From an uncultured Bacteroidia bacterium (lineage in GTDB: Bacteria; Bacteroidota; Bacteroidia; Bacteroidales; UBA932): a stretch of DNA of 54,396 nucleotides. The notes beneath the pieces are model-generated. The model was not told where the DNA came from. It saw only the letters and a program-made list of their open reading frames with translations, and ran no database searches. Positions 2,659 through 46,801 of the stretch are shown here, in pieces. Position numbers and translations under genes: made by a program. Location: contig CACZUR010000024.1 in assembly GCA_902784435.1 (NCBI GenBank), positions 1-54,396 on the forward strand, read 5' to 3'. Within the stretch, counting starts at the first letter, position 1, and each line of letters begins with the position of its first letter.

Positions 2659-3305
2659 AGGAAACGGTGGCCATGGTAAATGATTCGCTCACAGAGGCTT
2701 ACCATGGATTACTGGAACTGGACCGCCAAATTATTGTGTACCTTAATAAGATTGAGGCAGAGCAGCGGCTGGTGGAGAAAATCCGCCGCATCAAGTTCCT
2801 CAAGGACCAACTGGTGTGGGAGAACAGCACCGATGTGATTTGGGCGCTGCAGACGCATCGGCCCGCCTTTCTGGAAAAACGTCCGTGGTATAACTGCCTG
2901 CCGTCGCTGGAGGCCCTCACCAATACGCCGGATGGCATTGCCGCCCTGAAGGAGGCGCACACGGCGCTGAAAAGCCCCACGGCCCGTCGGAAGACAGACC
3001 CGGAGCCGCTCTCCCCGGAAGAACTCTCCCGCGGAGCCGTGGTAAAGGACACCCTGAACACCTTCGAGGTCCGAAACGCCTTCCTGGGCAGCTCGCAGGA
3101 CCTGATGACTTTTTTATTAGAGAGGTGGGATGTTTTTTCTGGAGCATCGGCCTTCTCTTTAGCTCCAGAAAAAGCGTCCCGCCTCTCCGAGGACGTTCTT
3201 ACCCTTTTCTGCCGCCTGGCGGTGGAATTCGACGAAGATTTCCGCATCACCGGGGAGTACCGTGAGGCGGGAGGCTTTCTGTATCCACTCATTTATCCGC
3301 GTTAG
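2643..3305 (+). CDS. jetA: Wadjet JetA, C-terminal part with a palindromic insert
   Basis: This 220-aa frame begins with the ATG at 2643 inside the end of the preceding frame. Residues about 20-55 (LLELDRQIIVYLNKIEAEQR and then RRIKFLKDQLVW) look like the central helical region of JetA-family kleisins. The C-terminus should contain the second winged-helix that contacts the SMC head. A family-A palindromic element (3121-3186) lies in frame and adds the segment around GASAFSLAPEKAS. The next gene, jetB, starts 3 bp after this stop. Taken with the preceding frame, a rejoined JetA would be about 405 aa. Whether the two halves work as separate chains cannot be told from sequence. Confidence 0.65.
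   Translation: MDVHLKETVAMVNDSLTEAYHGLLELDRQIIVYLNKIEAEQRLVEKIRRIKFLKDQLVWENSTDVIWALQTHRPAFLEKRPWYNCLPSLEALTNTPDGIAALKEAHTALKSPTARRKTDPEPLSPEELSRGAVVKDTLNTFEVRNAFLGSSQDLMTFLLERWDVFSGASAFSLAPEKASRLSEDVLTLFCRLAVEFDEDFRITGEYREAGGFLYPLIYPR
3121..3186 (+). repeat. Family-A palindromic element, copy 1 (in jetA)
   Basis: Arms 3121-3140 and 3167-3186 pair over 20 positions with three mismatches, all of which would be G-U pairs in RNA. The 26-nt core GGAGCATCGGCC...AGCTCC lies between them. Sixty-six bases, exactly 22 codons, are read through in frame as part of JetA, giving GASAFSLA. Confidence 0.8.
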
Positions 3306-3308
3306 ATC

Positions 3309-3863
3309 ATGATCAGGACCAAAGAAATATTCGAGCTCCTCTCCCGGGGAGGATTCATCAGCCAGGACAGCACCCGGGCCGATGTCCGTCGCCTCTATGA
3401 CTATATAGAGGAGAATTTTGACGAATATAAGGCTTATTATCAAGGCATTGGCTTTGTGCTGGAGCAGGGGAACGGGTATTTCCATTTCTCCCGGGAGGAG
3501 TCCCGCACGGAACTCACCCGTAGGCTCACGTCCCTAGGCGTCTGGATTGACCGCCTGGATTTTGTGAAAACCTTCCACAGCGGTTTTTCCACCGGCGTGC
3601 GCTTTACGCCATCGGCTATCACGGAAGCCATTTCGGCCGATGTGGAGCTGAAAGAGAAGGCGCGCAAGCTCTATCCCGGGCAGCACAGCGCCAAGGACAC
3701 GGTCCAGATGCTGGTGGACGATCTGGAAAAGGCGGGATTCATCGAACTGGAGAATGAGTTCGAACAGGTGTACAAGGTGACATCGGCCTTCCATTTCCTG
3801 GAAGGGCTGGTGGAAATGTTAACAATCAGCGAGGAGGAGGCCGCCGATGAGACAGCTCAGTAG
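3309..3863 (+). CDS. jetB: Wadjet JetB (kite-like subunit)
   Basis: A 184-aa soluble protein between jetA and jetC, the position and size of JetB, the MukE/kite-type subunit that binds the kleisin in Wadjet. The start region IRTKEIFELLSRGGFIS, followed by a long acidic helix (YDYIEENFDEYKAYY), resembles the winged-helix fold of MukE-like proteins. Residues 135-160 (LVDDLEKAGFIELENEFEQ) suggest a second winged helix. The gene overlaps jetC by 17 nt, indicating coupled translation. There is no catalytic motif, as expected for this structural subunit. The assignment comes from synteny plus general similarity to JetB, not from a diagnostic motif. Confidence 0.8.
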   Translation: MIRTKEIFELLSRGGFISQDSTRADVRRLYDYIEENFDEYKAYYQGIGFVLEQGNGYFHFSREESRTELTRRLTSLGVWIDRLDFVKTFHSGFSTGVRFTPSAITEAISADVELKEKARKLYPGQHSAKDTVQMLVDDLEKAGFIELENEFEQVYKVTSAFHFLEGLVEMLTISEEEAADETAQ

Positions 3864-6800
3864 AATTGTATTTGTGAACAGCGCCAACATCCGTTACGGA
3901 GAGGTGCGCCTGGACGGAAATGTGCATCTGATTGGTACGCAGGGCGTTGGAAAGAGCACCGTGCTCCGTGCCATCCTGTTTTTCTATACGGGTGACAAGA
4001 TGCACCTGGGCATCAGCCGGGAAAAGAAGTCGTTTGACGATTTCTATCTCCCGGGCGCCAATTCCTACATTGCCTATGAAGTGGAGAGCGAGTTTGGCGC
4101 CTTTACGGTGCTGGTTTTCCGCTCGCACGCGCACAGCGTTTTCCGCTTTATCGGGGCTCCGTTCCGGCAGGAATGGCTTATTGACGAGGCAGGGGAGGTG
4201 ACGGCCGACTCTTCTGTCATCCGCCGCCGCGTGGAGGGCGCTCCCATGACCCGTATCGTGGACGAGTACCAGGAGTACCGGGACATCATCTACGGGAACA
4301 AGCGTGCCACCGGCAAGGAGTTTGCCCGCTTCTGCATCATGGAAACGGCTAAGTATCAGAACATTCCGCGAAGCCTCCAGAATGTGTTCCTGGGCGCCAA
4401 GGTGGATGCCGATTTCATCAAGGATATCATTATAAGGTCCCTCGGAGACGAGGAGCCGGGCATCGACCTGGTGTATTTCCGCAGCCAGCTGGCAGGCTTT
4501 GAACGGGAGTATAACGACATTTCCCAGTGGTTCCAGAAGAACAAGCAAGGGGAGGTGACGGTGCGTCGCCAGGGGGAGAAGGTCGTTGAGTTGTATCGGA
4601 AGCTCCTATATCTGGACGATGAACTGACGGGCAGCCTCCTGGAGCTCCGCTACGCCCGTCGCTATGCCCGGGAGCGGATTCCGCTGCTGGACAGACAGGT
4701 GGAAGAGACGGAGGTGCTGCAACAAAAGTGCAAGGACAGGCTGGCCGATTTGCAGGACAAGTTTAACCACGAGCTCTCTGCCCTGGAGCAGGAACTGGGC
4801 GCCCTGAACGATAAACTGGAGAAGATTCCCAAGCTTCGGAAGCAATACGAAGGACTTGGTATCCAGACAATTATTGAGGAGGATGGGCAGGAGCCGGCGC
4901 TACAGGCCTCGTTGGAATCGGCCCAGGCGCTCCGCAACCGGCTCACCCGGGAGTATGCCGATATCACGGCCAAATACAAGGATCGGGAACGGGAGCTTAA
5001 GCTGGGCTTTGAGGCCTGGCGCGCGGCCCGGCAGGGGAGGAAGGTAGAGATTGGCGCAGCGCTGAATGCGCAGATTCGAAAGCTTTCCGAAGCGCTCCAG
5101 GCGGGGCTCTCCGGCGTTGAAGAGGCCTTCCGGGAGCGGGTATCGGCGCAGGAGAGCCTGCTCACGGACCTGCAGGAGCGGATGGCGGCGGCAGATAAAC
5201 AGCTGGCGCTCGCGGCCCATCTTTCGCCTTTTGCCCAGGAGATTCAGGCTGCCCGGGATGAGCAGTCCCGCCTCGCCGGCGAAAAAGGCCGCCTGGAGGC
5301 ATCGGCAAAAACGCAGGAGGCGCTTGTGGAGAAACTCATGCAGGAAGGGCAGTTCCAGCAGCATCGGGAAGCGCGCGAGTGGGACGACCAGCTTTCGGAG
5401 GTGGGGGCGCAGATGAAGGGCCTGGATGCCCAGATTGCGGAAATCGACCAACTCCTTGCCTCTATGGACGGTTCCCTGATCCAATGGCTTTCCCGGCACA
5501 AGCCCGGCTGGGAAGAGACCATCGGCAAGGTGGCCGATGAACGTACAGTGCTCTATGCCAAGAATTTATACCCTTCCGAGGTGAAGGGGGATTCCCTGTT
5601 TGGGGTGGATTTGGACCTGAGCTCTCTCAAGATGCGTGTGCGCACACCGGAGCAGCTGATGAAGGAAAAAGGGCAGCGGGAAAAGGAACTCTCCGCGCTG
5701 AAAGAGCGGCAGGAGGGTCTTCTGGCAGAGAAAGAGTCAGCGCTTGCTACCCTTCGGAAGAAGTACAACGCGCGCATTAAGCCGCTGAAGGACGAACTCT
5801 CCGGCCTGCAAGCGGCCGCCCTCATGCTTCCGGCTAAGCTGGAGGATGCCGGAAAACGCCTCTCGCTCCTGGAAGAAAACACCCGCAAGGCACGGGAAGA
5901 TGCGATGGGGAAGTGCAGGGAGGCCCTGCAGGCACTGACCGCGGAGAAGGTGCTGGCTGCGGAGGCCCTGAACGCCCTCCTGAAGGAGAAAGAGGCTGAG
6001 GTCCAGAAGCTTAAGGAGGCCGATGCCCGCAAGCGCAAGTCGCTGCAGAAGCAGCACGACGATGCTCTCACCCGGGTGGAGGCGGAGATTTCTACCCGGG
6101 AGAAGGAACTCTCAGCAGAATTGGAAGCACTGTATGCGGAGCAGACCCGGGAACTTTCCGGGCAGGGGGCCGATGCTACGGCGCTGGAACGCTGTGAAAA
6201 AGACATCCGGGAGCTGCAGGAGCGGCTGAAACGGATTGCCCGGAACAAGGAGACCCTTTTCAAATACCGGAAAGACAAGGAGGACTACCTGGACAAGAAG
6301 GAAATCTTCCTCTCGGAAAAGACCAAGGTGGAGGGGAAAAAGACTTCGCTGTCAGAGCGTTACAAACTTAAGCAAAGAAAAGAAGAGGATGCCCTTGCCC
6401 GCGCTACGGAAGCCCTTCAGGAACTGCGGGATGCCGTGAAGCAGCTCCGGGAAGGCCTCTCGGAGGCGGAAAATTTTGAGCAAAGTAACGCCCTGCCTCT
6501 TCTCCCGGAGGGGCGGGAGAATAAAACGGACAAGACCTGCCGGCAGCTCATCGACACCATCCACCGGGTCCTGAGCGAAAAACGGAATACGGAACAGGCT
6601 TTCTATCAGAGCGTTAATGCCTTCACTTCCCACTTCAGCCCCGGCAATATCTTCGATTTCAAGACCGACAACCACTCCGACGAGGAGTACCGCGCCTTTG
6701 CCTCCTCGCTGGTGGAATTCATGGAGAGCGACAAGATAGAGGAATTCCGCAGCCGCACCAGCGGGCATTACACAGAGCTGCTCCTTCGCATCTCCCACGA

Positions 6801-7506
6801 GATGGACGAGGTCTCCCGCAATTCCTCCGAGATTGCCGGCATCGTCAAGGACATCAACTACGACTTCAAGGAGAAAAACTTCATCGGTGCGGTGAAAAGT
6901 ATTGAGCTCCGCACCATCCCGTCGGCCGATAAAATGGTCACCCTGCTGGGCCATATCAAGGAATTTGCCGATGAACACGGCTACGACCTGGACCAGGTGA
7001 ACCTGTTCTCCGGGGCCTCCCGGGACGAATCCCGCAGTGCGGCCGTGGGGCATCTGCTGTCGCTGATGAAACTGCTCACCGGCGGCGAGCATGCCTCGCG
7101 CAGCCGGCTCACCCTCAGCGACACCTTCCAGTTGCAGTTCCGCATCACGGAGAACGACAACGACACCGGCTGGGTGGAGAAAATATCGTCCGTGGGCTCC
7201 GACGGCACGGATGTGCTGGTGAAGGCGATGGTGAACATTATGCTCATCAATGTGTTCAAAGAACGGGTGAGCGGGCGGTTTTCGGATTTCCGCATCCACT
7301 GCGTGATGGACGAGATAGGCCGCCTGCATCCCCGGAATGTCCGCGGCATCCTGGATTTCGCCGGCGCTCGTAACATCTTTCTGGTGAACGGGTCGCCCGT
7401 GCCGTACAATGTGGCCGATTATAAGCACACCTATCTGCTGTCCAAGGACGGAACGCGCACGGTGATTCAGTCACTGCTGAGCCGGAAGGAGGCGGCTGCA
7501 GAATGA
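3847..7506 (+). CDS. jetC: Wadjet JetC (MukB/SMC-like ATPase)
   Basis: The 1219-aa product is the SMC motor of the Wadjet complex, which hydrolyses ATP to extrude DNA loops. Residues 30-38 are a clear Walker A (GTQGVGKST). Residues about 250-960 are heptad-rich, Glu/Lys/Arg/Leu-dense coiled coil with a break near residues 540-620 for the hinge-like region. Near the C-terminus a Walker-B-like stretch (FRIHCVMDEIGRLHPRN) follows a signature-like SVGSDGTDVLVKAM. The length suits JetC (about 1100-1250 aa). It overlaps jetB by 17 nt and jetD by 4 nt (ATGA). Both nucleotide-binding halves are present and the frame is uninterrupted, so the motor appears intact even though jetA is split. Confidence 0.93.
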   Translation: MRQLSRIVFVNSANIRYGEVRLDGNVHLIGTQGVGKSTVLRAILFFYTGDKMHLGISREKKSFDDFYLPGANSYIAYEVESEFGAFTVLVFRSHAHSVFRFIGAPFRQEWLIDEAGEVTADSSVIRRRVEGAPMTRIVDEYQEYRDIIYGNKRATGKEFARFCIMETAKYQNIPRSLQNVFLGAKVDADFIKDIIIRSLGDEEPGIDLVYFRSQLAGFEREYNDISQWFQKNKQGEVTVRRQGEKVVELYRKLLYLDDELTGSLLELRYARRYARERIPLLDRQVEETEVLQQKCKDRLADLQDKFNHELSALEQELGALNDKLEKIPKLRKQYEGLGIQTIIEEDGQEPALQASLESAQALRNRLTREYADITAKYKDRERELKLGFEAWRAARQGRKVEIGAALNAQIRKLSEALQAGLSGVEEAFRERVSAQESLLTDLQERMAAADKQLALAAHLSPFAQEIQAARDEQSRLAGEKGRLEASAKTQEALVEKLMQEGQFQQHREAREWDDQLSEVGAQMKGLDAQIAEIDQLLASMDGSLIQWLSRHKPGWEETIGKVADERTVLYAKNLYPSEVKGDSLFGVDLDLSSLKMRVRTPEQLMKEKGQREKELSALKERQEGLLAEKESALATLRKKYNARIKPLKDELSGLQAAALMLPAKLEDAGKRLSLLEENTRKAREDAMGKCREALQALTAEKVLAAEALNALLKEKEAEVQKLKEADARKRKSLQKQHDDALTRVEAEISTREKELSAELEALYAEQTRELSGQGADATALERCEKDIRELQERLKRIARNKETLFKYRKDKEDYLDKKEIFLSEKTKVEGKKTSLSERYKLKQRKEEDALARATEALQELRDAVKQLREGLSEAENFEQSNALPLLPEGRENKTDKTCRQLIDTIHRVLSEKRNTEQAFYQSVNAFTSHFSPGNIFDFKTDNHSDEEYRAFASSLVEFMESDKIEEFRSRTSGHYTELLLRISHEMDEVSRNSSEIAGIVKDINYDFKEKNFIGAVKSIELRTIPSADKMVTLLGHIKEFADEHGYDLDQVNLFSGASRDESRSAAVGHLLSLMKLLTGGEHASRSRLTLSDTFQLQFRITENDNDTGWVEKISSVGSDGTDVLVKAMVNIMLINVFKERVSGRFSDFRIHCVMDEIGRLHPRNVRGILDFAGARNIFLVNGSPVPYNVADYKHTYLLSKDGTRTVIQSLLSRKEAAAE

Positions 7507-8372: not shown

Positions 8373-8448
8373 GTGCATTCCTCTTCCTGTACTTCTAGGC
8401 CGCCTCAGAATGGGTGGTAGGATGGGCAGATTCCGCCGTAACTTTGCA

Positions 8449-10589: not shown

Positions 10590-10630
10590 GGTGCTCCTAA
10601 TGTCCCCAAAAGCGGGACATTAGGAGCACC
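10590..10630 (+). repeat. 17-bp perfect hairpin between bcp and the CDF gene
   Basis: GGTGCTCCTAATGTCCC (10590-10606) and its exact inverse complement (10614-10630) enclose a 7-nt loop. The stem tip and loop, GTCCC-CAAAA-GGGAC, resemble the hairpin tips at 15409-15443, so it may be a relative of the family-C repeats. No T-run follows, so it is not a simple terminator. It overlaps the upstream part of the next gene's promoter region. Confidence 0.6.
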
Positions 10631-15354: not shown

Positions 15355-15446
15355 AGTGTAGGAGGTGTCCCAAAAACATGGACACCTCCTGCAAATAACG
15401 CCGATTTTGCGGGTGGTGTCCCTAAAAATGGGACACCACCCGCACT
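15355..15446. repeat. Family-C twin-hairpin element, copy 1
   Basis: Hairpin 1: AGGAGGTGTCC (15360-15370) with its inverse complement (15380-15390). Hairpin 2: GCGGGTGGTGTCCC (15409-15422) with its inverse complement (15430-15443). The linker and second stem share 18 identical bases, 15401-15418, with the copy at 19629-19646 next to the RAYT gene. The two-hairpin layout is that of REP/BIME elements. Confidence 0.75.
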
Positions 15447-18592: not shown

Positions 18593-18624
18593 CAAAGATA
18601 TGTTTTTTTCTACAAAAAATCAAA
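18593..18624 (-). promoter_or_regulatory. Promoter of the small-protein/TSCPD operon
   Basis: Minus-strand TTTG (18624-18621), 20 bp, TATCTTTG (18600-18593). It diverges from the RAYT promoter. Confidence 0.65.
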
Positions 18625-18629
18625 AAAAG

Positions 18630-18660
18630 TTGCAAGTTAGTCAACCAAATAGTATATTTG
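18630..18660 (+). promoter_or_regulatory. Promoter of the RAYT gene
   Basis: TTG (18630-18632), 20 bp, TATATTTG (18653-18660). It rules out an earlier in-frame ATG at 18600 as the start and points to the ATG at 18696. Confidence 0.55.
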
Positions 18661-18695
18661 TAGAGCGCGAGACAGGATGCGATTTAAATCCCTCT

Positions 18696-19581: not shown

Positions 19582-19675
19582 AAGTGCGGGAGGTGTCCTT
19601 AAAAAAGGTAGACCACCTGCAAAAAAGGCCGATTTTGCGGGTGGTGGCACATAATACGGGACACCTCCCGCACTT
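19582..19675. repeat. Family-C twin-hairpin element, copy 2 (next to RAYT)
   Basis: Outer arms 19582-19598 (AAGTGCGGGAGGTGTCC) and 19659-19675 are perfect inverse complements. Inner arms around ACCACCTGCAAAA (from 19612) and TTTTGCGGGTGGT (19633-19645) pair with one mismatch. It shares 18 identical bases with copy 1. It lies directly behind the RAYT stop codon, the usual place for REP elements linked to their transposase. Confidence 0.78.
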
Positions 19676-23895: not shown

Positions 23896-26787
23896 TTGCC
23901 CGCCGAAGGAAATATCATCGTCAAAAGGGCGCGCGTCAACAACCTGAAGGATATCACGGTGGAGATTCCCCGCAACAAGCTGGTTGTTGTGACGGGTGTG
24001 AGCGGCAGTGGCAAGAGTTCGCTGGCCTTCGACACGCTATTTGCCGAGGGCCAGCGCCGTTTTGCGGAAAGCCTGTCTTCTTATGCCCGGCAGTTCCTGG
24101 GCCGCATGGCCAAGCCCGACGTGGACAGCATAGAAGGCATCCCGCCGGCCATCGCCATCGAGCAGAAAGTGAACATCCGCAACCCGCGGAGCACCGTGGC
24201 CACCACCACGGAAATCTATGATTATCTGCGCATTCTGTTCGCGCGCATCGGCCGCACTTTCTCGCCTGTCAGCGGGGAAGAGGTACGGGCCCATACGCCG
24301 CAGGATGTCATGGCCGCCATCGACGACGGCCGCCCGCATGCCCTCTATATTTTGGCCGATATCCGCTGGGACGCCCGCGAGGACCGCGTGGAACTGATGC
24401 TGGCCCTCAAGGAAGAGGGGTATGGCCGCCTTTTCTGTCCTGCCGATGGCAACATCTATCAGATAGAAGATGTCCTGAAAATGGACGGTCATTATCCCGC
24501 CGGCCTGCAGCTCCTGGTGGACCGCGTGAAGACATCCGGCACGCTGGACGAAGACCTGCGTACGCGCCTGTTGTCTTCCATCCAGCAAGCCTTCGACAAA
24601 GGCAGCGGCGACATGGCCCTGTGGGAAAAGGCCGATGCCAAGCCAGAAGAGGCAAGACTTCCGGTCGCTAATAAGAGGGCCGATGCTCCCTCCAGTCTTG
24701 CCTCTTCCGGCCTTATTCGTTTCTGTTCGCGTTTTGAGCGGGACGGGATGGTGTTCCGGAGGCCGGATGAGTACCTTTTCAGCTTTAACAGCCCGCTGGG
24801 GGCATGCCCGGTTTGCGGAGGGCTGGGGAAGATAGTGGGCATCAGCGAAGACCTGGTGATTCCGGACAAGACCAAGAGCATCTACGACGGTGCCGTGGCC
24901 TGCTGGCGCGGAGAGAAGATGAGCTGGTTCAAGGACCTTGTCGTCAAGAATGCCGACAAGTATGACCTTCCTATCTTCGAGCCTTATTGCAAGCTCACGG
25001 AAGCGCAGAAAAAGGTGCTGTGGGAGTCCCGCAGCCATTTCCCGGAGGAGGATGCCATCTGCGGCATCAACGAGTTCTTCGAGTGGGTCGAGGCCAATCG
25101 TTACAAGATTCAGTATAAGTATATGCTGTCCCGGTACAGCGGACGCACCACCTGTCATGCCTGCGGCGGGAGCCGCCTGCGGCCGGAGGCCCTGTATGTA
25201 CAGGTGGCCGGAAAGAACATCCACCAGTTGCTTTCCATGACGGTGGACGAATTCCTGCTGTGGATAGACGCAACGTTGCAGAGCCGGCTTACGGATACGG
25301 AACGGACCGTGGCGGGGAAAGTGCTGGAAGAGATTCAGTACCGTCTGCAATGCATCCAGGACGTGGGACTGGGCTATCTGACGCTGAGCCGCACCATGAA
25401 TACCCTGTCGGGCGGTGAGAGCCAGCGGGTGAATCTGGTAACAGCCCTGGGCAGTTCCCTGGTGGGGTCCATGTACATCCTGGACGAACCTTCCATCGGC
25501 CTGCATCCCCGGGATACGGACCGGCTCATCGCCGTTCTCAAGCGCCTGCGGGACATCGGCAATACCGTGGTGGTGGTGGAGCATGACCAGGAGATTATCC
25601 GGGCGGCCGACCACCTGATAGACCTGGGCCCGAAGGCCGGGGTGAACGGCGGCGAAGTGGTGTTCCAGGGGGCGCCGGGAGAGATGCCCGGTCAAGCCGG
25701 GCATGACGGCACTCCATCTTTGACGCTGCAATACCTGACCGGCATCCGCAAGCCCTATGTGCGGGAAAAGAACCCCTGGCGCTACAGCATCACGGTGGAA
25801 GGGGCTATGCAGAACAACCTGAAGGATATCGACGTGACCTTCCCGCTGAACGCCTTTACGGTGGTGAGCGGGGTGTCCGGCAGTGGCAAGAGCTCGCTGG
25901 TGGGCGATATCCTGTATCCTGCCCTGCACCGGCGCATCAACGAGACGGGGGACCTGCCGGGCGTTTTCAAGGGCCTGTCCGGCGACCTGAACCGCATCAC
26001 GCGGGTGGAATACGTGGACCAGAATCCCATCGGCAAGAGCTCCCGCAGCAATGCCGTCACCTATCTGAAGGTGTACGATGACATCCGTAAACTCCTGAGC
26101 GATCAGCAGTTCGCCCGTATCAACGGCTTCACGCCGTCCTTCTTCTCCTTTAACCAGGAGGGCGGCCGCTGCCCCGAATGCCAGGGCGACGGCTTCGTGA
26201 GAATCGGCATGCAGTTCATGGCCGATGTGACCATGGTTTGCGAAAGCTGTGGCGGCAAGCGCTTCAAACCGGAAATCCTGGAGGTGCGCTACCAGGGGAA
26301 GAATGTGGACGATATCCTGAACCTGAGCGTGGAGGAGGCCATTGCCTTCTTTGGTGCGCAGAAGGAAGATCTGGCCAAGTCCATCGCGGCGCAGCTGCAG
26401 CCGCTCATGGATGTGGGCCTGGGATACATCAAGCTGGGGCAGCCTTCCAGCACACTTTCCGGCGGAGAAAGCCAGCGTATCAAACTGGCCTATTTCCTGT
26501 CGCTGGCCTCCGGCAGCCGGGAAAGGATCCTGTTCCTGTTTGACGAACCTACCACCGGCCTGCATTTCTACGACGTGGAGAAGCTTCTGAAGGCCTTCGA
26601 CGTCCTGCTCTCCAAGGGGCACACGGTCATCGTGGTGGAGCACAACCTGGATGTCATCCGGAGTGCCGACTGGGTGATAGATCTGGGGCCGGACGCCGGC
26701 GACAAAGGCGGCGAAGTGGTGTTCGCCGGTACGCCGGAAGACCTTATCAAGGCCGGCAATACCTTTACAGCCAAGTATTTGGCCTAG
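23896..26787 (+). CDS. uvrA: Excinuclease ABC subunit A
   Basis: UvrA recognises DNA damage as a dimer and loads UvrB. The 963-aa frame has both ABC modules: Walker A GVSGSGKSSLAFD (about residue 35) and GVSGSGKSSLVGD (about 657); signatures LSGGESQRVNL and LSGGESQRIKL; Walker B MYILDEPSIGLHPRD and LFLFDEPTTGLHFYD; and the zinc-finger cysteines CPVCGG, CHACGG, CPECQGDG and CESCGG. There is no ATG near the start; a stop at 23878-23880 limits the frame, so TTG at 23896 is the likely start, 11 bp after the upstream stop and probably coupled to it. Two palindromic repeats are translated in frame: family A near residues 249-272 (NKRADAPSS) and family B near residues 597-604 (MPGQAGHDG). Confidence 0.95.
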   Translation: MPAEGNIIVKRARVNNLKDITVEIPRNKLVVVTGVSGSGKSSLAFDTLFAEGQRRFAESLSSYARQFLGRMAKPDVDSIEGIPPAIAIEQKVNIRNPRSTVATTTEIYDYLRILFARIGRTFSPVSGEEVRAHTPQDVMAAIDDGRPHALYILADIRWDAREDRVELMLALKEEGYGRLFCPADGNIYQIEDVLKMDGHYPAGLQLLVDRVKTSGTLDEDLRTRLLSSIQQAFDKGSGDMALWEKADAKPEEARLPVANKRADAPSSLASSGLIRFCSRFERDGMVFRRPDEYLFSFNSPLGACPVCGGLGKIVGISEDLVIPDKTKSIYDGAVACWRGEKMSWFKDLVVKNADKYDLPIFEPYCKLTEAQKKVLWESRSHFPEEDAICGINEFFEWVEANRYKIQYKYMLSRYSGRTTCHACGGSRLRPEALYVQVAGKNIHQLLSMTVDEFLLWIDATLQSRLTDTERTVAGKVLEEIQYRLQCIQDVGLGYLTLSRTMNTLSGGESQRVNLVTALGSSLVGSMYILDEPSIGLHPRDTDRLIAVLKRLRDIGNTVVVVEHDQEIIRAADHLIDLGPKAGVNGGEVVFQGAPGEMPGQAGHDGTPSLTLQYLTGIRKPYVREKNPWRYSITVEGAMQNNLKDIDVTFPLNAFTVVSGVSGSGKSSLVGDILYPALHRRINETGDLPGVFKGLSGDLNRITRVEYVDQNPIGKSSRSNAVTYLKVYDDIRKLLSDQQFARINGFTPSFFSFNQEGGRCPECQGDGFVRIGMQFMADVTMVCESCGGKRFKPEILEVRYQGKNVDDILNLSVEEAIAFFGAQKEDLAKSIAAQLQPLMDVGLGYIKLGQPSSTLSGGESQRIKLAYFLSLASGSRERILFLFDEPTTGLHFYDVEKLLKAFDVLLSKGHTVIVVEHNLDVIRSADWVIDLGPDAGDKGGEVVFAGTPEDLIKAGNTFTAKYLA
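24642..24711 (-). repeat. Family-A palindromic element, copy 2 (in uvrA)
   Basis: Arms GAAGAGGCAAGACT (24646-24659) and its exact complement (24694-24707), extended to 24642-24711 with one mismatch. The core is in reverse orientation (GTCGCTAATAAGAGGGCCGA, continuing TGCTCC) and is read in uvrA as VANKRADAP. Confidence 0.82.
25684..25704. repeat. Family-B palindrome in uvrA
   Basis: ATGCCCGG (25684-25691), loop TCAAG, CCGGGCAT (25697-25704). It is translated as part of MPGQAGHDG in a surface loop between the two UvrA halves. Confidence 0.8.
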
Positions 26788-27995
26788 CCAAAGATGATTT
26801 CCATGATTTTTTCCGTGGCACCGGCCGATGCCATGCAGTATGCCCGTGCCGCCTGCCCGCTTTTTGAAGGAAATGCCGGATTCGAAGGGGATGCACCTTC
26901 AGTCGCTAAAGAGAAGGCCGATGCTCCTTCAGGTGCATCCCCTTCTAAGGCGAAGGCTTCCAGCTCGGCGGTGTTGGAGATGGAGCGGCCGGCGCCGGCG
27001 GCGATGAGGTTCTGGCAATGGTGATCGCGGGCGTAGTTGGGGCCGAAGGCCACGGGAATGCCGTAGGCGGCGGGCTCGATGACACTGTGCGGGGCGCCTT
27101 CCGTGAAACTGCCGCCCACGTAGGCGGCGTAGCCGTAGCGGTACAGGCGGGAGAGCATGCCCACGGTGTCGATGATGAGGATCTGGGCGCTGCGGAGCCG
27201 GTCATCGGCCTCTTTCCCTTCGTACTCCGTGTAGCGTACACAGCCGTAGGCGCCGGCGGTTTCGGGCTCATGGGGGATGAGGAGAATCTTGCTTCCGGGG
27301 TGCCTGCCGGCCATTTCCAGCACCATGCAGTCTTCCGGGGCGTAGGTGCTGCCGGCCACGAACACTTTCTTTCCGCCGCACCAGGCGTCTACCACGGGAT
27401 TGCTCCAGGCCTGGGCACTCAGGGCCAGCACGCGGTCCATCCGGGGGTCTCCGGTGACACGGACGTCCGGCGCGCCCAGCCGCTGCAGCAGTTCCCGGCT
27501 CTGCTCATTCTGGACCATCACCGTTTTGTAACAGTGACGGAAGATGAAGCGGTAGTTGAAGTCCCACCACTTAAGGTGCTTGGAATCAGGCTCTACGCGG
27601 ACAGACATAATGTAGGTGTCTATGTGACGCCGGTGCAGTTCTCCCAGCAGGAAGGGCCAGTAGTCCGTGATGGTGAAAATGGCCTTGGCCGGACGCACGG
27701 CATCCAGGAAGCGGCGCACGTTCCAGGGCGTGTCCAGCGGCAGGTAGAAGACCCAGTCTACCTGGGCGTAGTGCTGCATGGGCACATAGACTGTGGGGGA
27801 GAAGACGGTCATGAGGATTTTCCGCTCCGGGAAACGGGCGCGGGTGGCTTCGATCACCGGCCGGGCCTCTTCGAATTCCCCGTAGGAGGCTACATGGAAC
27901 CAGATGATGTCCCGGTGCTCCTGGCATGCGGCGGCAATCCGGGGAAGGAGGCCTTTCCGGCCTTGGAAAAACAAGCGTATCTTCTCTGTATTCAC
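26784..27995 (-). CDS. waaA: 3-deoxy-D-manno-octulosonic acid (Kdo) transferase
   Basis: WaaA adds Kdo from CMP-Kdo to lipid A at the inner membrane. The 403-aa protein has the GT-B architecture of the family: IIWFHVASYGEFEEARPVIE near residue 30 (with the catalytic-region Glu), VFSPTVY, the central VTGDPRMDRV, and the C-terminal YVGGSFTEGAPHSVIEPAAY and ATEKIM. The usual membrane anchor at the N-terminus is reduced; the protein begins MNTEKIRLFFQGRKG. A family-A element (26884-26945) is inserted in frame at residues about 351-370 (GASAFSLATEG). Its stop overlaps that of the convergent uvrA by a few bases. It diverges from the glycan operon at 28076. Confidence 0.92.
   Translation of the reverse strand: MNTEKIRLFFQGRKGLLPRIAAACQEHRDIIWFHVASYGEFEEARPVIEATRARFPERKILMTVFSPTVYVPMQHYAQVDWVFYLPLDTPWNVRRFLDAVRPAKAIFTITDYWPFLLGELHRRHIDTYIMSVRVEPDSKHLKWWDFNYRFIFRHCYKTVMVQNEQSRELLQRLGAPDVRVTGDPRMDRVLALSAQAWSNPVVDAWCGGKKVFVAGSTYAPEDCMVLEMAGRHPGSKILLIPHEPETAGAYGCVRYTEYEGKEADDRLRSAQILIIDTVGMLSRLYRYGYAAYVGGSFTEGAPHSVIEPAAYGIPVAFGPNYARDHHCQNLIAAGAGRSISNTAELEAFALEGDAPEGASAFSLATEGASPSNPAFPSKSGQAARAYCMASAGATEKIMEIIFG
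26884..26945 (-). repeat. Family-A palindromic element, copy 3 (in waaA)
   Basis: Arms GAAGGGGATGCACCT (26884-26898) and its exact complement (26931-26945) enclose a 32-nt core. In the sense of the waaA gene the core reads GGAGCATCGGCCTTCTCTTT and then AGCGAC, giving GASAFSLA. Confidence 0.85.
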
Positions 27996-35150: not shown

Positions 35151-35721
35151 CGTAGTAAAGACGCAAATACCCGGCGTGGTCATCATCGAACCGCGTGTGT
35201 TCGGCGATGCGCGGGGCTATTTCCTGGAAAGCTGGAGCCAGCGGGACTTCGATGCCGCGGTGCGTCCGGTGCATTTCGTACAGGACAATGAGAGTAAAAG
35301 CAGGTACGGCGTGGTACGCGGCCTGCACTACCAGAAAGGCGCTTCCTCGCAAAGCAAACTGGTGCGCGTGGTCAGCGGCCGTGTGCTGGACGTGGCGGTG
35401 GATATCCGTCGCGGGTCGCCGTGGTTCGGCAAGCATGTGACGTGCGAACTCAGCGGGGAAAACCATCGGCAATTCTTCATTCCCAAGGGCTTTGCGCACG
35501 GTTTTGCCGTCCTGAGCCCGGAGGCCGTTTTCCAGTACAAGTGCGACATGCCTTACGTCCCCGAGGCCGAAGGCGCCATCGCATGGAACGATCCTGCCCT
35601 GGGGATTGACTGGGGCCTCCCGGAGGCCGATATCCTGCTGTCGGAAAAGGACCGGCACCACGCTCCGCTGGCCCTGACGGAGGATCTTTTCGATTATTCA
35701 CAAGACCTGTACGCCTTATGA
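35143..35721 (+). CDS. rfbC: dTDP-4-dehydrorhamnose 3,5-epimerase
   Basis: A 192-aa cupin enzyme for the third step of dTDP-L-rhamnose synthesis. The family markers are all present: EPRVFGDARGYFLESW, FVQDNESKSRYGVVRGLHYQ (catalytic His), LVRVVSGRVLDVAVDIRRGS, FIPKGFAHGFAVLS (catalytic region) and the C-terminal IAWNDPALGIDWGL. The length is typical. It lies between pseI and rfbD with overlapping ends. The first two rhamnose genes, rfbA and rfbB, are not in this window. Confidence 0.95.
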   Translation: MINVVKTQIPGVVIIEPRVFGDARGYFLESWSQRDFDAAVRPVHFVQDNESKSRYGVVRGLHYQKGASSQSKLVRVVSGRVLDVAVDIRRGSPWFGKHVTCELSGENHRQFFIPKGFAHGFAVLSPEAVFQYKCDMPYVPEAEGAIAWNDPALGIDWGLPEADILLSEKDRHHAPLALTEDLFDYSQDLYAL

Positions 35722-36659
35722 GAATCCTTGTTACAGGGGCCTGCGGGCAGCTCGGGACCAGCCTGCGTCCGCTCCTTCCGGATGCCGTATTTACAGACAT
35801 AGTGGAAGCGCCCGGCACGCGTCGGCTGGATATCACGGATTTGCCTGCCATCCGCACCCTGATTACCGCAGAGAAGATAGACTGCATCGTGAACTGCGCC
35901 GCTTTCACGAATGTAGATGCGGCCGAAGACCAGCCGGAACTGGCAGAACTTCTGAATGCCAAGGCCGTGGAGAATCTGGCCGTAGCCATGCGGGAAGCCG
36001 GCGGTTTCCTCCTGCACATCTCTACGGACTATGTCTTTGGCGGCGAATCCCTGAATACGCCCATCCGGGAAACCCAGACGGGGAAACCCACCGGGGTGTA
36101 TGGCCTTACCAAGCTCCATGGGGAAGAAGCCATCCGGCGCACGGGCGTCCGCTCCATCATCCTCCGCACGGCCTGGCTGTACAGCGAATTCGGCAGGAAC
36201 TTCGTGAAGACCATGCTGCGCCTCACCGCCGAACGGCCCTCCCTGAAGGTGGTTTTCGACCAGGTGGGAACTCCCACCTACGCCGGGGATCTGGCCGATG
36301 CCATCGTTCGCATCCTGCATCAGGAGGATCGCGCCAAGGAGGACGGCACTCCTAAGGGAGCATCGGCCTTCTCTTTAGCGACCGCAGGAGTGCCGTCCTC
36401 CTTGTCTTCCTGTCGTGTGTTCCATTACACGAATGAGGGCGTGTGCTCGTGGTACGACTTTGCCAAGGCCATTGCGGCTTATGCAGGGCACACGGGCTGC
36501 GAGATTCTGCCTTGCCATTCCAGCGAATTCCCGTCCAAGGTGGTCCGTCCGGCCTATTCGGTGCTGGACAAGACCCTGATCAAGGAATCTTTCTCACTGA
36601 AAATACCTTATTGGACAGACGCTTTGCAGCGCTGCCTGAAGGGACTTCTGCAGGGGTGA
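35718..36659 (+). CDS. rfbD: dTDP-4-dehydrorhamnose reductase with a palindromic insert
   Basis: The final enzyme of dTDP-L-rhamnose synthesis, NADPH-dependent. The N-terminus is MRILVTGACGQLGTSLRPLL. The catalytic YxxxK is in GKPTGVYGLTKLHGEEA (Tyr about 131), with STDYVFGG and DQVGTPTYAGDLADAI. The protein has 313 aa where 280-295 is normal. The extra stretch, DGTPKGASAFSLATAGVPSS, corresponds exactly to the family-A element at 36335-36404 and lies between the helix DLADAIVRIL and the strand VFHYTNEGVCSWYDF, a loop where RmlD homologues connect directly. The last 80 bp overlap the 3' end of the convergent fimbrial gene. Confidence 0.93.
   Translation: MRILVTGACGQLGTSLRPLLPDAVFTDIVEAPGTRRLDITDLPAIRTLITAEKIDCIVNCAAFTNVDAAEDQPELAELLNAKAVENLAVAMREAGGFLLHISTDYVFGGESLNTPIRETQTGKPTGVYGLTKLHGEEAIRRTGVRSIILRTAWLYSEFGRNFVKTMLRLTAERPSLKVVFDQVGTPTYAGDLADAIVRILHQEDRAKEDGTPKGASAFSLATAGVPSSLSSCRVFHYTNEGVCSWYDFAKAIAAYAGHTGCEILPCHSSEFPSKVVRPAYSVLDKTLIKESFSLKIPYWTDALQRCLKGLLQG
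36335..36404 (+). repeat. Family-A palindromic element, copy 4 (in rfbD)
   Basis: The clearest copy. Nineteen perfectly paired bases in each arm (36335-36353 and 36386-36404) flank a 32-nt core containing GGAGCATCGGCCTTCTCTTT then AGCGAC. It is translated as GASAFSLA and accounts for the extra residues in RfbD. Confidence 0.9.
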
Positions 36660-41864: not shown

Positions 41865-41876
41865 AGCGTATCCTCC

Positions 41877-42989: not shown

Positions 42990-42992
42990 ATC

Positions 42993-44318
42993 TTATGCCA
43001 TTTCTTTGATCATCAGGTCAATGCCTTTCTGGATAATGGCCTGGATCTCGTTCTTGGAAGGGTCTACATAGTCGCACAGGGCCAGATCCTCGGGCAGGAC
43101 TTCGTAGATGCCGAATTTTTCCATCTTCTCGATGTCGCCGGCCAGGCAGGCCTTGATGAGGTAGATGGGGAAGATGTCGATGGGGGTGACATCCTCGAAG
43201 CATTTGGTTTCTACGAAAGCGCGGGGACCGCCGTGCAGGTTGGTGTCCATGTCGTACTTCTTGCCGGGGGTGAGCCAGGAGAAGTAGCACCAGGAGCTGC
43301 TGTGTACCTTGGGACGGAAGGGCTTGGCCCAGCCGAACCATTCGCGCTCATAACCTTCCCTCAGTAGGGTGAGCTGGTTCTGGAAGAAGCCCAGGTAGCC
43401 GTCTGCGCCCAGGTTTTCGCCGGAGAGGACATCGCCGCCCACTACCCGGATATCCTGCCCCACGGAGGTGATTTCCTTGACGGGGGTACCGGGGAGGCAG
43501 CATACATAGCCGGTCTGAGGGGCGGCGGGGCCGGTGACGGCCACTTTGCGCATCAGGTCCAGCTTACCGGTTTTGACCAGCTTGCCGATGGCCGCAACAT
43601 GCAGCAGGGAAACGGTCCAGACAATCTCTCCCTTCTTGATGGGGGCGATGTGGCTGATCTGGACACCGACGTTGCCGGCAGGATGCGGGCCGCTCACGAT
43701 GTGCAGCTCTGCGTTCTGCAGCCGGGCAAAGGGAACGTCTTCCTTGCGGATAGAGACATGCACGGGGGCGATCTTGGCCAGGGCGTTCACGCCGGCCTGG
43801 ATATCGGCCAGGGCGTCTCCCAGGACAAAACCTTCGTCCGCTGCGAGCGGAGCCGTGCTGAAAGAGGAGATGAAAATTGCCTTGGGCGTGTCCTCCGGGT
43901 TGGCCATGACGCCGTAGGGGCGCTGTACCAGGGTACCCCAAAGGCCGGAGGTGAGCAGGAGGTTCCGGGTCTGTTCCGCCGTGGCCGGAGCCTTGGCGCC
44001 GAAATCTACGGAATCCTGTTTTCCATCGGCCTTTACGAGAACTGCCAGCAACTTTCTTTTGTCGCCCCTGACGATGCTCTGGACCGTGCCGCTGACCGGC
44101 GAGGTGAAGAGGATCTGGGGGCGCATTTTGTCGGCCATCACGGGCGAGCCTGCCTTTACCGCGTCGCCTTCCTTGACCAGGAGTCTTGCGACCAGCCCGG
44201 GGAAGTCCGTAGGCTTTACGGCAACGATGTCAGGACTCACGCTTTTGATGACCACCGAGGCCGCTTCTCCCTTGACGGGGATGTTGAGGCCCTTGTTCAA
44301 ATGCAGTTTGTTTGACAT
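42993..44318 (-). CDS. nqrA: Na+-NQR subunit A
   Basis: The 441-aa soluble subunit that contacts the quinone side of the sodium-pumping NADH dehydrogenase. I use the ATG at 44318 (MSNKLHLNKGLNIPVKG), which is the conserved start; an upstream in-frame ATG adds nine unlike residues. Barrel-sandwich residues (VKPTDFPGLVARLLVKEGDA) and the C-terminal Rnf/Nqr region with SWLTPGKKYDMDTN and DVTPIDIFPIYLIKACLAGD are present. It is the first gene of nqrABCDEF, the complex that couples NADH oxidation to sodium export. Confidence 0.95.
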   Translation of the reverse strand: MSNKLHLNKGLNIPVKGEAASVVIKSVSPDIVAVKPTDFPGLVARLLVKEGDAVKAGSPVMADKMRPQILFTSPVSGTVQSIVRGDKRKLLAVLVKADGKQDSVDFGAKAPATAEQTRNLLLTSGLWGTLVQRPYGVMANPEDTPKAIFISSFSTAPLAADEGFVLGDALADIQAGVNALAKIAPVHVSIRKEDVPFARLQNAELHIVSGPHPAGNVGVQISHIAPIKKGEIVWTVSLLHVAAIGKLVKTGKLDLMRKVAVTGPAAPQTGYVCCLPGTPVKEITSVGQDIRVVGGDVLSGENLGADGYLGFFQNQLTLLREGYEREWFGWAKPFRPKVHSSSWCYFSWLTPGKKYDMDTNLHGGPRAFVETKCFEDVTPIDIFPIYLIKACLAGDIEKMEKFGIYEVLPEDLALCDYVDPSKNEIQAIIQKGIDLMIKEMA

Positions 44319-44356
44319 TATTTTATAGGTTTTGTGTATTTGCAAAAAATACTGCG

Positions 44357-44364
44357 CGAAGTTA
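44357..44364 (-). promoter_or_regulatory. -7-like box of the nqr operon
   Basis: Minus-strand TAACTTCG, one base from the consensus, 38 bp before the nqrA start. It diverges from the helicase gene; no clear -33 box. Confidence 0.35.
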
Positions 44365-44376
44365 CGAAAAAATTAC

Positions 44377-44384
44377 TAATTTCG
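44377..44384 (+). promoter_or_regulatory. -7-like box of the UvrD/PcrA helicase gene
   Basis: TAATTTCG, one base from the consensus, 20 bp before the ATG at 44405. No clear -33 box. Confidence 0.35.
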
Positions 44385-44404
44385 CCTACTATTTTTGGGG
44401 AGAT

Positions 44405-46801
44405 ATGAGTGAGATTCTAGCGTCCTTGAACAAGGAACAGCAAGCAGCAGTGACATGTACGGAAGGCCCTATGCTCATCGTGGCGGGGGCCGGCTCCGGT
44501 AAAACCCGTGTCTTGACGTCCCGGATTGCCTATCTGATAGAAAAGGGCGTCCCGGCCCAGCAGATCCTGGCCCTCACCTTTACCAAGAAGGCGGCCGGGG
44601 AAATGAAGGAGCGGATCGGCCTCATGGTGGGGGAGCGCCAGGCCCGCCGCATCTGGATGGGCACTTTCCACTCCGTGTTCATCCGTTTCCTTCGGGAATA
44701 TGCCGACAGGATAGGGTTCCCGGCCACTTTCACCATCTACGACACCGCAGACTCGGTGAGCGCGGTCAAGGCCTGTCTGAAGCAACTGGAACTGGACGAC
44801 AAGCTGTACAAGCCCAAGGAAGTGCTTTCCCGCATCTCCCGGGCCAAGAACGACCTGGTCACCCCCACGCCTTACCGGGAAGGGAAAGGCGGGTACCGGG
44901 ACGACGACGTCAAGCACAAGAAGCCGGAAATCTACCGGGTCTATGAACTGTATTGCCGGAACTGCCGGCAGGCCGGGGTGATGGACTTCGACGACATCCT
45001 CCTGTACATGAATATCCTGCTTAAAAGCTGCCCGGATGCCTTGGAGGCCATTGCCGGCCGGTTCCGGCATATTCTGGTGGACGAGTACCAGGACACCAAC
45101 ATGGCGCAGTACCTGATCCTGAAGAAACTGGCCGCCGGTCACCGGAACCTCTGTGTGGTGGGGGACGATTCCCAGTCCATCTATGGCTTCCGCGGCGCCC
45201 AGATCCAGAACATTCTCAATTTCCAGAAGGATTTCCCGGGCGCCCGCCTGTTCCGCCTGGAGCGCAATTACCGCAGCACCAGCACCATCGTAGACGCAGC
45301 CAACTCCGTCATCGCCAACAACGAGGGCCGCATTCCCAAACAGTGCGTGTCCATGGGGGAGAAAGGGGAACCCATCCACCTGGTGCGCGCGTTCACGGAG
45401 CAGGAGGAGGCCATGCTCATTGCATCGGCCATCCTGAACCGGATGCGGGAGGAGCAGTGCGAATACGAGGACTTTGCCATCCTGTACCGCACCAATTCGC
45501 AGTCCCGGGCGCTGGAAGAGCAGCTGCGCCGCCGCAACATTCCGTACATGATCTACTCCGGCAATTCCTTCTTTGAGCGGGCGGAGGTAAAGGATATGAT
45601 GGCCTATTTCAAACTGGCTGTGAACCTGAACGACGACGAATCCTTCAAGCGCATCGTGAACAAGCCCACCAGGGGCATCGGCGACACTTCGCTGAACGCC
45701 CTGGTTTCGGCGGCACAGGCATCGGGCCTGTCGCTGTTCAAGGCTGCGGCGCTGCCGGATTTGGAGAAATACGGCCTGAAGGCGGCCGCCATCGGCAAGA
45801 TCCGCGCTTTCTGCACCCTGATGGAGAAGGCGGCGGTGGAGGCCCGGGAGGGGGATGCGTACGACGTGGCCATGTCACTGGCCTCGGAAAGCGGACTGTA
45901 CCTTTATTACAAAGCCGACGATTCCATCGAGGGCCAGTCGCGTTTTGCCAATGTGCAGGAGCTGCTGGACAGCGTCAAATCCTACGAAGAGGATGTCCAG
46001 GGAGAATGGGCCGAAGAGATGCTGGAGGCCGATGCCATGGTGGAGGACGGAGATACCCCCTTCGTCGCAGAAGAGAGGGCCGATGCTCCTCAGGGGGCAT
46101 CTCCGTCCTCCATGCACCGTGTCTTGCTGGCGGACTATCTGGAGAATGTGTCGCTGCTGTCCAATGTGGATGTGGCGGATGACCAGACCAATAACAAAGT
46201 GGCGCTGATGACGGTGCACACGGCCAAGGGACTGGAATTCCCGTATGTGTTCGTCTCCGGCATGGAGGAAAACCTGTTCCCGTCCGGCGGCTGGATGGTG
46301 ACGCCCTCGGACCTGGAGGAGGAACGCCGGCTGTTCTATGTGGCCATCACCCGCGCCAAGAAGGCGGTTTCGCTGAGTTTCGCCGAAACCCGCATGCGCA
46401 ACGGAAAACACGAGTCCAACGCCCCCAGCCGTTTCCTCCGGGAGATTGCCCCGCAGTATCTGGACCGCCCGCTGCGGCGGGAAGCTACGGCCTGGGAGCA
46501 GCCGCCCGTACGGCGGGAACCGGCCTTTCCACGGCGGGAGCCGGCGCGCCCTGCGCCAGCACCGGTGGTGTCCAGGCCCCGGCCGCAGCAGTTGGAGAAG
46601 CCTCCGCTCATTTCGGACAATTTTGTTCCGGACCCCATGTCCAGCTTCCGGGTGGGGGACCGCATCGAGCACAATAGATTCGGGGCAGGAAAAGTCCTTG
46701 AAATTACCGGGCAGGTCCCGGAATTGAAAGCCAAAATCCTCTTTGAAAAGTACGGAGAAAAACTCCTACTGCTAAAATTTGCGAAAATTCGACATATTTA
46801 G
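44405..46801 (+). CDS. UvrD/PcrA-type DNA helicase with a palindromic insert
   Basis: A 798-aa superfamily-1 3'-5' helicase involved in repair and removal of replication blocks. All core motifs are seen: motif I AGAGSGKTRVLTSR (about residue 32), Ia ALTFTKKAAGEMKER, II ILVDEYQDTNMAQ, III VVGDDSQSIYGFRGA, IV LERNYRSTSTIV, V TVHTAKGLEFPYVFVSG and VI YVAITRAKKAVSLSF. The C-terminal Tudor-like tail (VGDRIEHNRFGAGKVLEI) matches PcrA/UvrD. The start at 44405 follows the -7-like box; an earlier in-frame ATG overlaps the nqrA promoter. A family-A element (46041-46112) inserts residues about 547-570 (AEERADAPQGASPS) in the 2B-2A linker region. Confidence 0.93.
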   Translation: MSEILASLNKEQQAAVTCTEGPMLIVAGAGSGKTRVLTSRIAYLIEKGVPAQQILALTFTKKAAGEMKERIGLMVGERQARRIWMGTFHSVFIRFLREYADRIGFPATFTIYDTADSVSAVKACLKQLELDDKLYKPKEVLSRISRAKNDLVTPTPYREGKGGYRDDDVKHKKPEIYRVYELYCRNCRQAGVMDFDDILLYMNILLKSCPDALEAIAGRFRHILVDEYQDTNMAQYLILKKLAAGHRNLCVVGDDSQSIYGFRGAQIQNILNFQKDFPGARLFRLERNYRSTSTIVDAANSVIANNEGRIPKQCVSMGEKGEPIHLVRAFTEQEEAMLIASAILNRMREEQCEYEDFAILYRTNSQSRALEEQLRRRNIPYMIYSGNSFFERAEVKDMMAYFKLAVNLNDDESFKRIVNKPTRGIGDTSLNALVSAAQASGLSLFKAAALPDLEKYGLKAAAIGKIRAFCTLMEKAAVEAREGDAYDVAMSLASESGLYLYYKADDSIEGQSRFANVQELLDSVKSYEEDVQGEWAEEMLEADAMVEDGDTPFVAEERADAPQGASPSSMHRVLLADYLENVSLLSNVDVADDQTNNKVALMTVHTAKGLEFPYVFVSGMEENLFPSGGWMVTPSDLEEERRLFYVAITRAKKAVSLSFAETRMRNGKHESNAPSRFLREIAPQYLDRPLRREATAWEQPPVRREPAFPRREPARPAPAPVVSRPRPQQLEKPPLISDNFVPDPMSSFRVGDRIEHNRFGAGKVLEITGQVPELKAKILFEKYGEKLLLLKFAKIRHI
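46041..46112 (-). repeat. Family-A palindromic element, copy 5 (in the helicase gene)
   Basis: Arms 46041-46061 and 46092-46112 pair at 20 of 21 positions around a 30-nt core in reverse orientation (GTCGCAGAAGAGAGGGCCGA, then TGCTCC). Read in frame as VAEERADAP. Confidence 0.87.

Follow-up and report, generated by a model that had tools for sequence, protein, structure and literature searches.

In-frame coding palindromes with a constant loop and copy-specific arms in a genus of Bacteroidales

We analyzed a stretch of 54,396 nucleotides (hereafter the window; contig CACZUR010000024.1 of assembly GCA_902784435.1) from an uncultured bacterium of the Bacteroidales lineage UBA932, in which five hairpin-forming elements lie in frame within five genes. 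The five represent a family present throughout the genome, which we call F1; it has a constant loop and arms that differ between copies while staying complementary within each copy. On balance we lean, by a slight degree, towards regarding such elements as non-autonomous selfish coding palindromes of a Bacteroidales genus, which behave like the Rickettsia palindromic elements (RPEs), carry a core that acts at the DNA level and have their arms re-matched by template switching. The five elements of the window are the following.

Element 1: 3120..3187, core on the plus strand, in a small conserved gene (2643-3305), encoding ERWDVFSGASAFSLAPEKASRLS
Element 2: 24642..24711, core on the minus strand (24667-24689), in uvrA (23896-26787, plus strand), encoding PEEARLPVANKRADAPSSLASSG
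Element 3: 26884..26945, core on the minus strand (26905-26927), in waaA (26784-27995, minus strand), encoding EGDAPEGASAFSLATEGASPS
Element 4: 36335..36404, core on the plus strand (36357-36379), in rmlD/rfbD (35718-36659, plus strand), encoding KEDGTPKGASAFSLATAGVPSSL
Element 5: 46041..46112, core on the minus strand (46067-46089), in the gene for the PcrA/UvrD helicase (44312-46801, plus strand), encoding VEDGDTPFVAEERADAPQGASPSSM

An earlier note, made from the letters of the window, had located these palindromes, and all five were recovered by direct reading and by an inverted-repeat search, with one arm pair reaching 3120-3187. They interrupt coding sequence without frame loss, as that note had described, all of them lying within open frames of 220-963 amino acids. 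The core pattern GGAGCATCGGCCNTCTNNTNNGC has five matches in the window at up to three mismatches, against 0.11 expected from 100 shuffles. Folded as single-stranded DNA, all five elements have z-scores between -5.6 and -6.9. Pfam identifies four of the five hosts in agreement with their earlier names (UvrA, WaaA, RmlD, which is rfbD, and PcrA/UvrD), and UvrA and RmlD also exceed NCBIfam cut-offs. However, the name jetA given to gene 2643-3305 could not be upheld, as this gene has no match in Pfam, PADLOC or NCBIfam; the flanks of its element are 84-85% identical in two hairpin-free relatives.

In the whole genome of 2,232,861 bases, the F1 core is matched 53 times at up to three mismatches (24 exact, 8 with one, 8 with two and 13 with three), while the reversed pattern is matched only twice. 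Together with the window count, this disposes of the concern that the core might be no commoner than its composition predicts. The three-mismatch matches are a mixture, the majority of which have no stem. The 24 exact matches were not chosen by stem and thus serve as the selection-free check of pairing: 21 of them have a stem score of at least 11 and three have a score of 5, two of these lying in closely spaced multiple copies. A larger set of 104 copies from all genomes, 39 of them from this genome, was picked by core plus stem score, so the level of pairing in it is inflated.

Almost all of these elements are coding. In this genome, 37 of the 39 stem-bearing copies lie inside a covering open reading frame (ORF) of at least 100 amino acids in a canonical frame; two of the 37 (L033 and L045) have no Pfam support, and a third (L015) really sits in an RsmF gene in a third, non-canonical frame. 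The two other copies, OWN_L029 and OWN_L025, have no covering canonical ORF of 100 amino acids, and OWN_L025 lies upstream of a gyrase/topoisomerase IV A domain, so the earlier statement that there is no intergenic copy is right for the window but not genome-wide. Among the 104 copies, the longest covering ORF is canonical in 82, and a canonical ORF of at least 100 amino acids also covers 19 of the remaining 22. The two canonical frames encode GASAF-like or KKADAP-like peptides. The hosts identified by Pfam include CysRS, IleRS, MetRS, MurE, MiaA (IPPT), Fmt, UvrA, WaaA, RmlD and PcrA/UvrD, and further DNA polymerase I, DnaX, AtpG, shikimate dehydrogenase, a pterin-binding enzyme, a DHH phosphoesterase and others.

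Stable folds and the placement of nearly all copies within ORFs would suit mRNA hairpins with a regulatory or co-translational role. However, relative to the gene the core is antisense in 25 and sense in 12 of the 37 ORF-borne copies of this genome, so that the mRNA loop differs between copies. Moreover, on the assumed mRNA strand (set by the canonical frame, which is wrong in at least one copy) A.C mismatches (82) outnumber G.T mismatches (44), the opposite of RNA wobble tolerance. Mixed orientations and this mismatch bias disfavour selection at the mRNA level, and we consider such a role extremely improbable. As for known RNA families, Rfam at the gathering score matched only two tRNAs in the window and none of the five elements, and this candidate was rejected; below the gathering score, microRNA-type hairpin matches lie over the elements at three of the five window loci.

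The earlier description of a conserved 26-nt core between two arms was correct as to the constant centre, and the invariant stretch can now be narrowed to a 20-nt loop, GCATCGGCCYTCTYWTYAGC, followed on each side by a short semi-conserved internal loop and then by the arms. One symmetric pairing register is common to the stem-bearing copies, and copies with a resolved stem are 46-84 bp in size, mostly 60-76 bp. Across the 39 copies of this genome, 82-97% of pairs at stem positions 7-21 are Watson-Crick, against 28-79% once the 3' letters have been exchanged at random between copies, and many stem positions show three or four pair types. A left arm scores 14.57 against its own right arm and only 5.78 against right arms from the other copies of its genome (104 copies), and in 97% of copies the own-arm match exceeds the 95th percentile of the other-copy matches. 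The arms are thus copy-specific yet complementary within each copy, as first proposed. Their sequence is non-random, drifting away from a weak consensus that shows a G periodicity of three bases; the G+C content of arm and flank is weakly correlated overall (rho 0.22) and strongly in one genome, G176, only. Insertion sequences (IS) and miniature inverted-repeat transposable elements (MITEs) are marked by conserved terminal inverted repeats, while here the core-aligned copies and the shared register reveal a conserved centre and variable ends, which bears out the view that these are no normal IS or MITE.

The exact 20-nt F1 pattern occurs in 44 stretches among 84,980 species genomes, 32 of them in five metagenome-assembled genomes (MAGs) and 12 in unrelated taxa. 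All five MAGs are named "Bacteroidales bacterium" (Tb.RUG.143, Tb.RUG.329, Tb.RUG.533, RGIG7856 and RGIG9187), and the names of the last two mention water buffalo and water deer reticulum. In the unrelated taxa, stem scores of the 12 matches range from 3 to 7. Of the 32 MAG matches, two run into a contig end and the remaining 30 have scores of 6-23, three of these being 6 or 7. When F1 was sampled in 36 other members of the genus and 24 members of the order, only G028 stood out. Most of the genomes are incomplete, and copy counts in relatives cover fetched stretches only. The use of MAGs or incomplete genomes and the low-complexity peptides (ADA, GAS) might be taken to favour chance, low-complexity coding repeats or an assembly artefact as the explanation. 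The shuffled and reversed-pattern controls, the low stem scores in unrelated taxa, the arm-matching controls and the recurrence of F1 in this genome and the five named MAGs all speak against it, and we give it virtually no weight.

A second family, F2 (GCGTCGCTTCGCGACCNTGTNCGGGCAAATGC), was first met at orthologous sites of G019 and G028. It is present in 14 of the 151 genus genomes searched and absent from this genome, with zero control matches. F1, read on the reverse strand, and F2 have common ends, GTCGCT...ATGCTCC, which suggests that the two may be one superfamily. In a stricter palindrome scan, the 54-kb window yielded seven palindromes, five of them F1 and two of other kinds. The same scan found three palindromes, none of F1 or F2 type, in twenty 20-kb stretches of twelve genus members (the carriers G019 and G028 included), and 16 in order-level samples, most of them outside long ORFs.

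Comparison with relatives brings out empty sites. DNA alignments were made at 14 genes with up to four relatives, together with a flank-anchored comparison with up to 12; these relatives are about 10-30% diverged in protein, so that insertion borders are not readable to the base. In MiaA, four relatives (G175, G028, G034 and G003) have no hairpin and keep the ...AL/AEILSADS... junction, and the length excess over relatives is 60-63 nt for a palindrome of 64 nt. In UvrA, nine relatives have no hairpin and the excess is mostly 72-78 nt (57 in G175) for a palindrome of 70. The excess in RmlD is 69-78 nt against six insert-free relatives and 51 against G028, the palindrome being 70 nt long, and that in GH28 is 66-75 nt for a palindrome of 66. 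In these four genes the inserted length is that of the entire hairpin. PcrA/UvrD is variable in this region, and the relatives compared have no hairpin at that place. Structures agree: MiaA residues 82-98 are unmatched in the PDB homologue and RmlD residues 203-233 in the best PDB homologue, and in IleRS the insert region aligned to the PDB homologue is mostly gap. The possibility raised before, that homologues carry the same residues at these positions, is contradicted by the empty sites of relatives and by the PDB alignments of MiaA, RmlD and IleRS.

One gene position can hold different families in different species. The UvrA position contains F1 in this genome, F2 in G019 and a third kind of palindrome in G176, and the MiaA position contains F1 in this genome and G177, F2 in G178 and an insert without clear stem in G176. 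The CysRS position has F1 in both orientations and also F2. The DHH position is occupied in six of seven carriers and the Fmt position in all seven, with a few inserts there lacking a clear stem. In a strict count, which required both flanks and positions no more than 60 nt apart, 41 between-genome F1 pairs share a site (30 with the same and 11 with opposite core orientation), with 19 of 74 site clusters shared; a looser count (59 pairs, 28 of 62 clusters) was set aside because it admitted neighbours matched by one flank only. Fetched F1 copies at sites also filled by F1 in this genome number 7 of 22 in G175, 7 of 13 in G176, 11 of 23 in G177 and 1 of 6 in G028. In a 16-gene tree, the seven carriers that were placed form a clade against six others (support 97); the G175+G176 node has a support of 100, the other inner nodes are weak, and most F2 carriers are outside the tree. 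The sisters G175 and G176 differ in occupancy at UvrA, MurE and MiaA, suggesting that inserts are gained (or lost) repeatedly at a restricted number of tolerant positions.

Several loci carry additional inserts. In uvrA of G176 (L369/L389), an in-frame insert of about 200 nt has several TGGACCAGGTCC-type palindromic pieces and represents a further family. In a nucleotidyltransferase gene (L164, G028:C56:5500-7000), a third coding palindrome (TCGAGCACCAGAAGGGCC...TTCGTGCTCGA) follows an F1 element as an in-frame tandem array. The F2 element in ileS of G019 (L132) has an extra insertion of about 40 nt in mid-core with the frame kept, and rmlD of G176 and G175 (L357 and L367) has a second F1-like insert near the RmlD N-terminus, besides the insert at the site used in the window gene.

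Orthologous copies show how the arms and the core change. The arms are free in sequence yet complementary, and they change by paired substitutions. Between the MurE F2 copies of G163 and G164 (flank DNA 86-91% identical, same orientation), 16 stem pairs are unchanged, one is changed on one side and two are paired double changes; between F2 copies of G119 and G164 (flank DNA 78-81%), the numbers are 14, one and four. In MetRS of G019 and G150 (flank DNA 86-87%), 18 of 19 stem pairs are identical, while the core is identical to the reverse complement at 32 of 32 positions and to the direct sequence at only 10 of 32. The core therefore lies flipped within kept arms in this one gene, and the encoded peptide differs (GAFARTGSRSDA vs SASLRDPVRANA). 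Summed over these three pairs, 48 stem pairs are unchanged, three are changed on one side and six are doubly changed yet still paired, and only 1 of 96 core bases has changed while the flanks are 78-91% identical. These totals exclude a fourth F2 pair (Fmt, L280/L263), on account of an apparent deletion within one arm. Its arms are mostly unmatched, with six stem pairs unchanged, seven changed on one side, one paired change and five of other kinds, and its core agrees at 30 of 32 positions. Eleven genomes each have one or more F2 copies whose core is identical at all 30 fixed positions.

For F1, the fraction of identical stem pairs is 0.485 at shared sites and 0.354 at unrelated sites. Nine of the 41 same-site pairs have at least 60% identical stem pairs and include 24 paired double changes, against about four if the arms were independent; this threshold equals the 95th percentile for unrelated pairs, so the nine may include pairs of that kind. 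Stems also decay: in G175 the mean is 11.2 of 15 pairs with no perfect stem among 22, compared with a mean of 13.7 in this genome. Mismatches read on the core strand have an excess of G.T (94 vs 32; 70:20 in sense-minus copies and 24:12, not significant, in sense-plus copies). This excess would fit a single-stranded form of fixed polarity and is only suggestive, because mismatches at three positions recur in many copies.

As the core is conserved in both gene orientations and flipped at one site, neither peptide nor mRNA explains its conservation, and its action must lie in the DNA itself, through either selection or spread in trans. We suggest that the element may spread as a folded single strand, with the core as the recognition sequence of a putative enzyme and the arms needed only as a stem. 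After insertion, template switching between the arms during replication would repair mismatches, giving concerted arms, and would occasionally invert the loop. Template switching is described as homogenising inverted-repeat arms and inverting spacers in the available part of PMC8604942, and these two products correspond to the paired arm changes and the loop inversion. The survivors would be in-frame copies giving small, hydrophilic and flexible peptides in tolerant loops, which could account for the two preferred frames and the recurrent positions.

The flipped core within kept arms of MetRS, the different core families at the same positions and the identical cores with unrelated arms in one genome would also be expected if the core alone moved, replacing the loops of hairpins already present in genes, with the arms belonging to the site. 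We consider such homing of loops quite unlikely, since same-site arms are only somewhat more alike than unrelated-site arms, new sites still require a source of arms, and plain template switching accounts for the flip without homing. A broader proposal, possible but in our judgement rather improbable, treats the core as a unit of homing or recognition at the DNA level that is passed between hairpin loops (or kept by a putative loop-recognising factor), the arms being free under template-switch homogenisation. Such elements would form a class of mobile DNA with a constant loop and free ends, in which rival core families make renewed use of the same insertion positions in essential genes.

Several results count against selfish, template-switched palindromes as the explanation. 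First, the insert is shorter than the hairpin in some genes: the excess is 54-63 nt for a palindrome of 68 nt in MurE, 57 for 62 nt in WaaA (against G176, the sole relative compared, which has no insert) and 42-57 for 70 nt in IleRS. In gene 2643-3305, compared with the hairpin-free relatives G019 and G034, it is only 39-45 nt for a palindrome of 68 bp, and host sequence of G034 can be aligned to the left arm. In these four genes, part of an arm may thus be host DNA, or host residues may have been lost. Gene 2643-3305 would suit an inverted copying of host DNA, in which old host sequence forms one arm and the insert is made up of the core and that arm copied in inverted form. The full-hairpin excess in MiaA, UvrA, RmlD and GH28 leaves duplication of a host arm unsupported as a general rule, and we hold it to be very unlikely. 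Second, no target-site duplication was readable against relatives too diverged for base-exact borders. Third, exact-core F2 copies within one genome have arms only 32-74% identical (14 pairs), so there is no sign of donor hairpins being simply copied. Fourth, no mobilising enzyme linked to the elements was found. Of 16 genomes, 14 encode Y1 (REP-type) transposases, some of these genomes being non-carriers, and the F2 carrier G163 has none; the flanks of seven Y1 genes, two of this genome's three among them, contain other hairpins or none. RVT_1 has no match in this genome, G028, G175, G176 and G177, all incomplete, and one match in G178. Viral contigs contain no exact F1 or F2 core.

Finally, the conservation of the core could equally reflect a host function, as would be the case if a host DNA-binding protein recognised it on a hairpin that is extruded or single-stranded, with selection keeping core and pairing at dozens of loci. 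The core is indeed near-invariant across diverged species and in both orientations, and it is intact in two F2 copies with weakened arms, G170_L263 (7/20 pairs, partly owing to an apparent arm deletion) and G106_L261 (12/20). The differences between the sister species at UvrA, MurE and MiaA mean that sites turn over; moreover, 137 of the 151 genus genomes searched are without F2, F1 stood out in one of the 36 other genus members sampled, and a position inside essential genes would be an odd choice. We therefore regard a host site as unlikely.

Three carriers or mobilisers were rejected: phage, given the viral contigs without exact cores; a REP/RAYT mobiliser (repetitive extragenic palindromes and their associated tyrosine transposases), as the distribution of Y1 genes does not track the elements; and reverse-transcribed spread, as RVT_1 was matched in only one of the six F1 genomes tested, which are incomplete.

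The likeness to RPEs suggested in the earlier note holds as an analogy of behaviour, short of identity: the elements are palindromic, in frame and in housekeeping genes, with different families at the same sites. According to the accessible sections of PMC3767692, RPEs and Wolbachia palindromic elements (WPEs) are in-frame palindromes of protein genes with several families at the same loci of orthologues, as for RPE-4, RPE-6 and RPE-7 in Rickettsia japonica, and RPE inserts lie in solvent-exposed regions. However, the RPEs described there measure 100-150 bp, with one RPE-4 of 84 bp, and the present elements are shorter (46-84 bp, mostly 60-76). RPEs are also reported, in the part of PMC6649704 at hand, to lose repeat identity over time; here orthologous copies change by paired substitutions, but stems also decay, as in G175. 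Compared by description, the present elements further differ from RPEs in their constant core, copy-specific arms, a core that can flip and Bacteroidales hosts. The same excerpt treats palindromes in mitochondrial genes of Nematomorpha, whose arms in coding sequence seem to be actively kept matched, possibly by template switching; those arms encode conserved protein regions instead of inserts, and the excerpt mentions no common core. Template-switch (quasipalindrome) evolution, in the extract of PMC8604942, comprises arm homogenisation and spacer inversion, both seen here. It is, however, a mutational process and not an element, and leaves a conserved core at dozens of sites unexplained. PARCELs (palindromic amphipathic repeat coding elements) should also be mentioned. 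They are palindromic coding repeats of bacteria, but, as far as the available text of PMC2996958 goes, intragenic tandem repeats and not single dispersed inserts in housekeeping genes. No literature on such a family in Bacteroidales was found in an open-access search, most subscription papers being outside its scope.

The elements extend protein-coding palindromes from Rickettsiales to Bacteroidales, and many essential enzymes of these bacteria carry inserts of about 15-28 residues of foreign origin. The design reverses that of ordinary small mobile repeats, the centre being constant and the ends free, and it raises the question of which enzyme could move a hairpin recognised by its loop. Comparable positions across species provide a natural experiment on how proteins tolerate inserts, and the paired substitutions and loop inversion inform the study of template switching in coding DNA.

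REPs resemble F1 and F2 in being short hairpins, and this genome carries Y1 transposase genes. However, REPs are extragenic with a tag at one end (PMC3733652, partial text), while here the loop defines the element and nearly all copies are intragenic; extragenic location does not apply to 37 of the 39 copies, and none of the seven Y1 genes is flanked by an element. The hairpins beside Y1 genes look unrelated to F1 and F2. In the window, a Y1 transposase gene (18600-19568; Pfam above the cut-off, the REP-associated transposase model below it) is directly followed by a hairpin with GGAGGTGTCC/GGACACCTCC arms (19582-19675); there is one like it at 15355-15446, and a further hairpin occupies 10590-10630. 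This gene and its hairpins are probably a separate REP/RAYT system.

The neighbour of gene 2643-3305, at 3847-7503, encodes an SMC/MukB-like ATPase with weak JetC-like and LmuB matches, and the small genes beside it have no family matches; the region is possibly a divergent Wadjet-like or MukBEF-like operon. Near the miaA gene, L030:2195-2253 matches the SAM-II riboswitch with 63.7 bits, above the gathering score.

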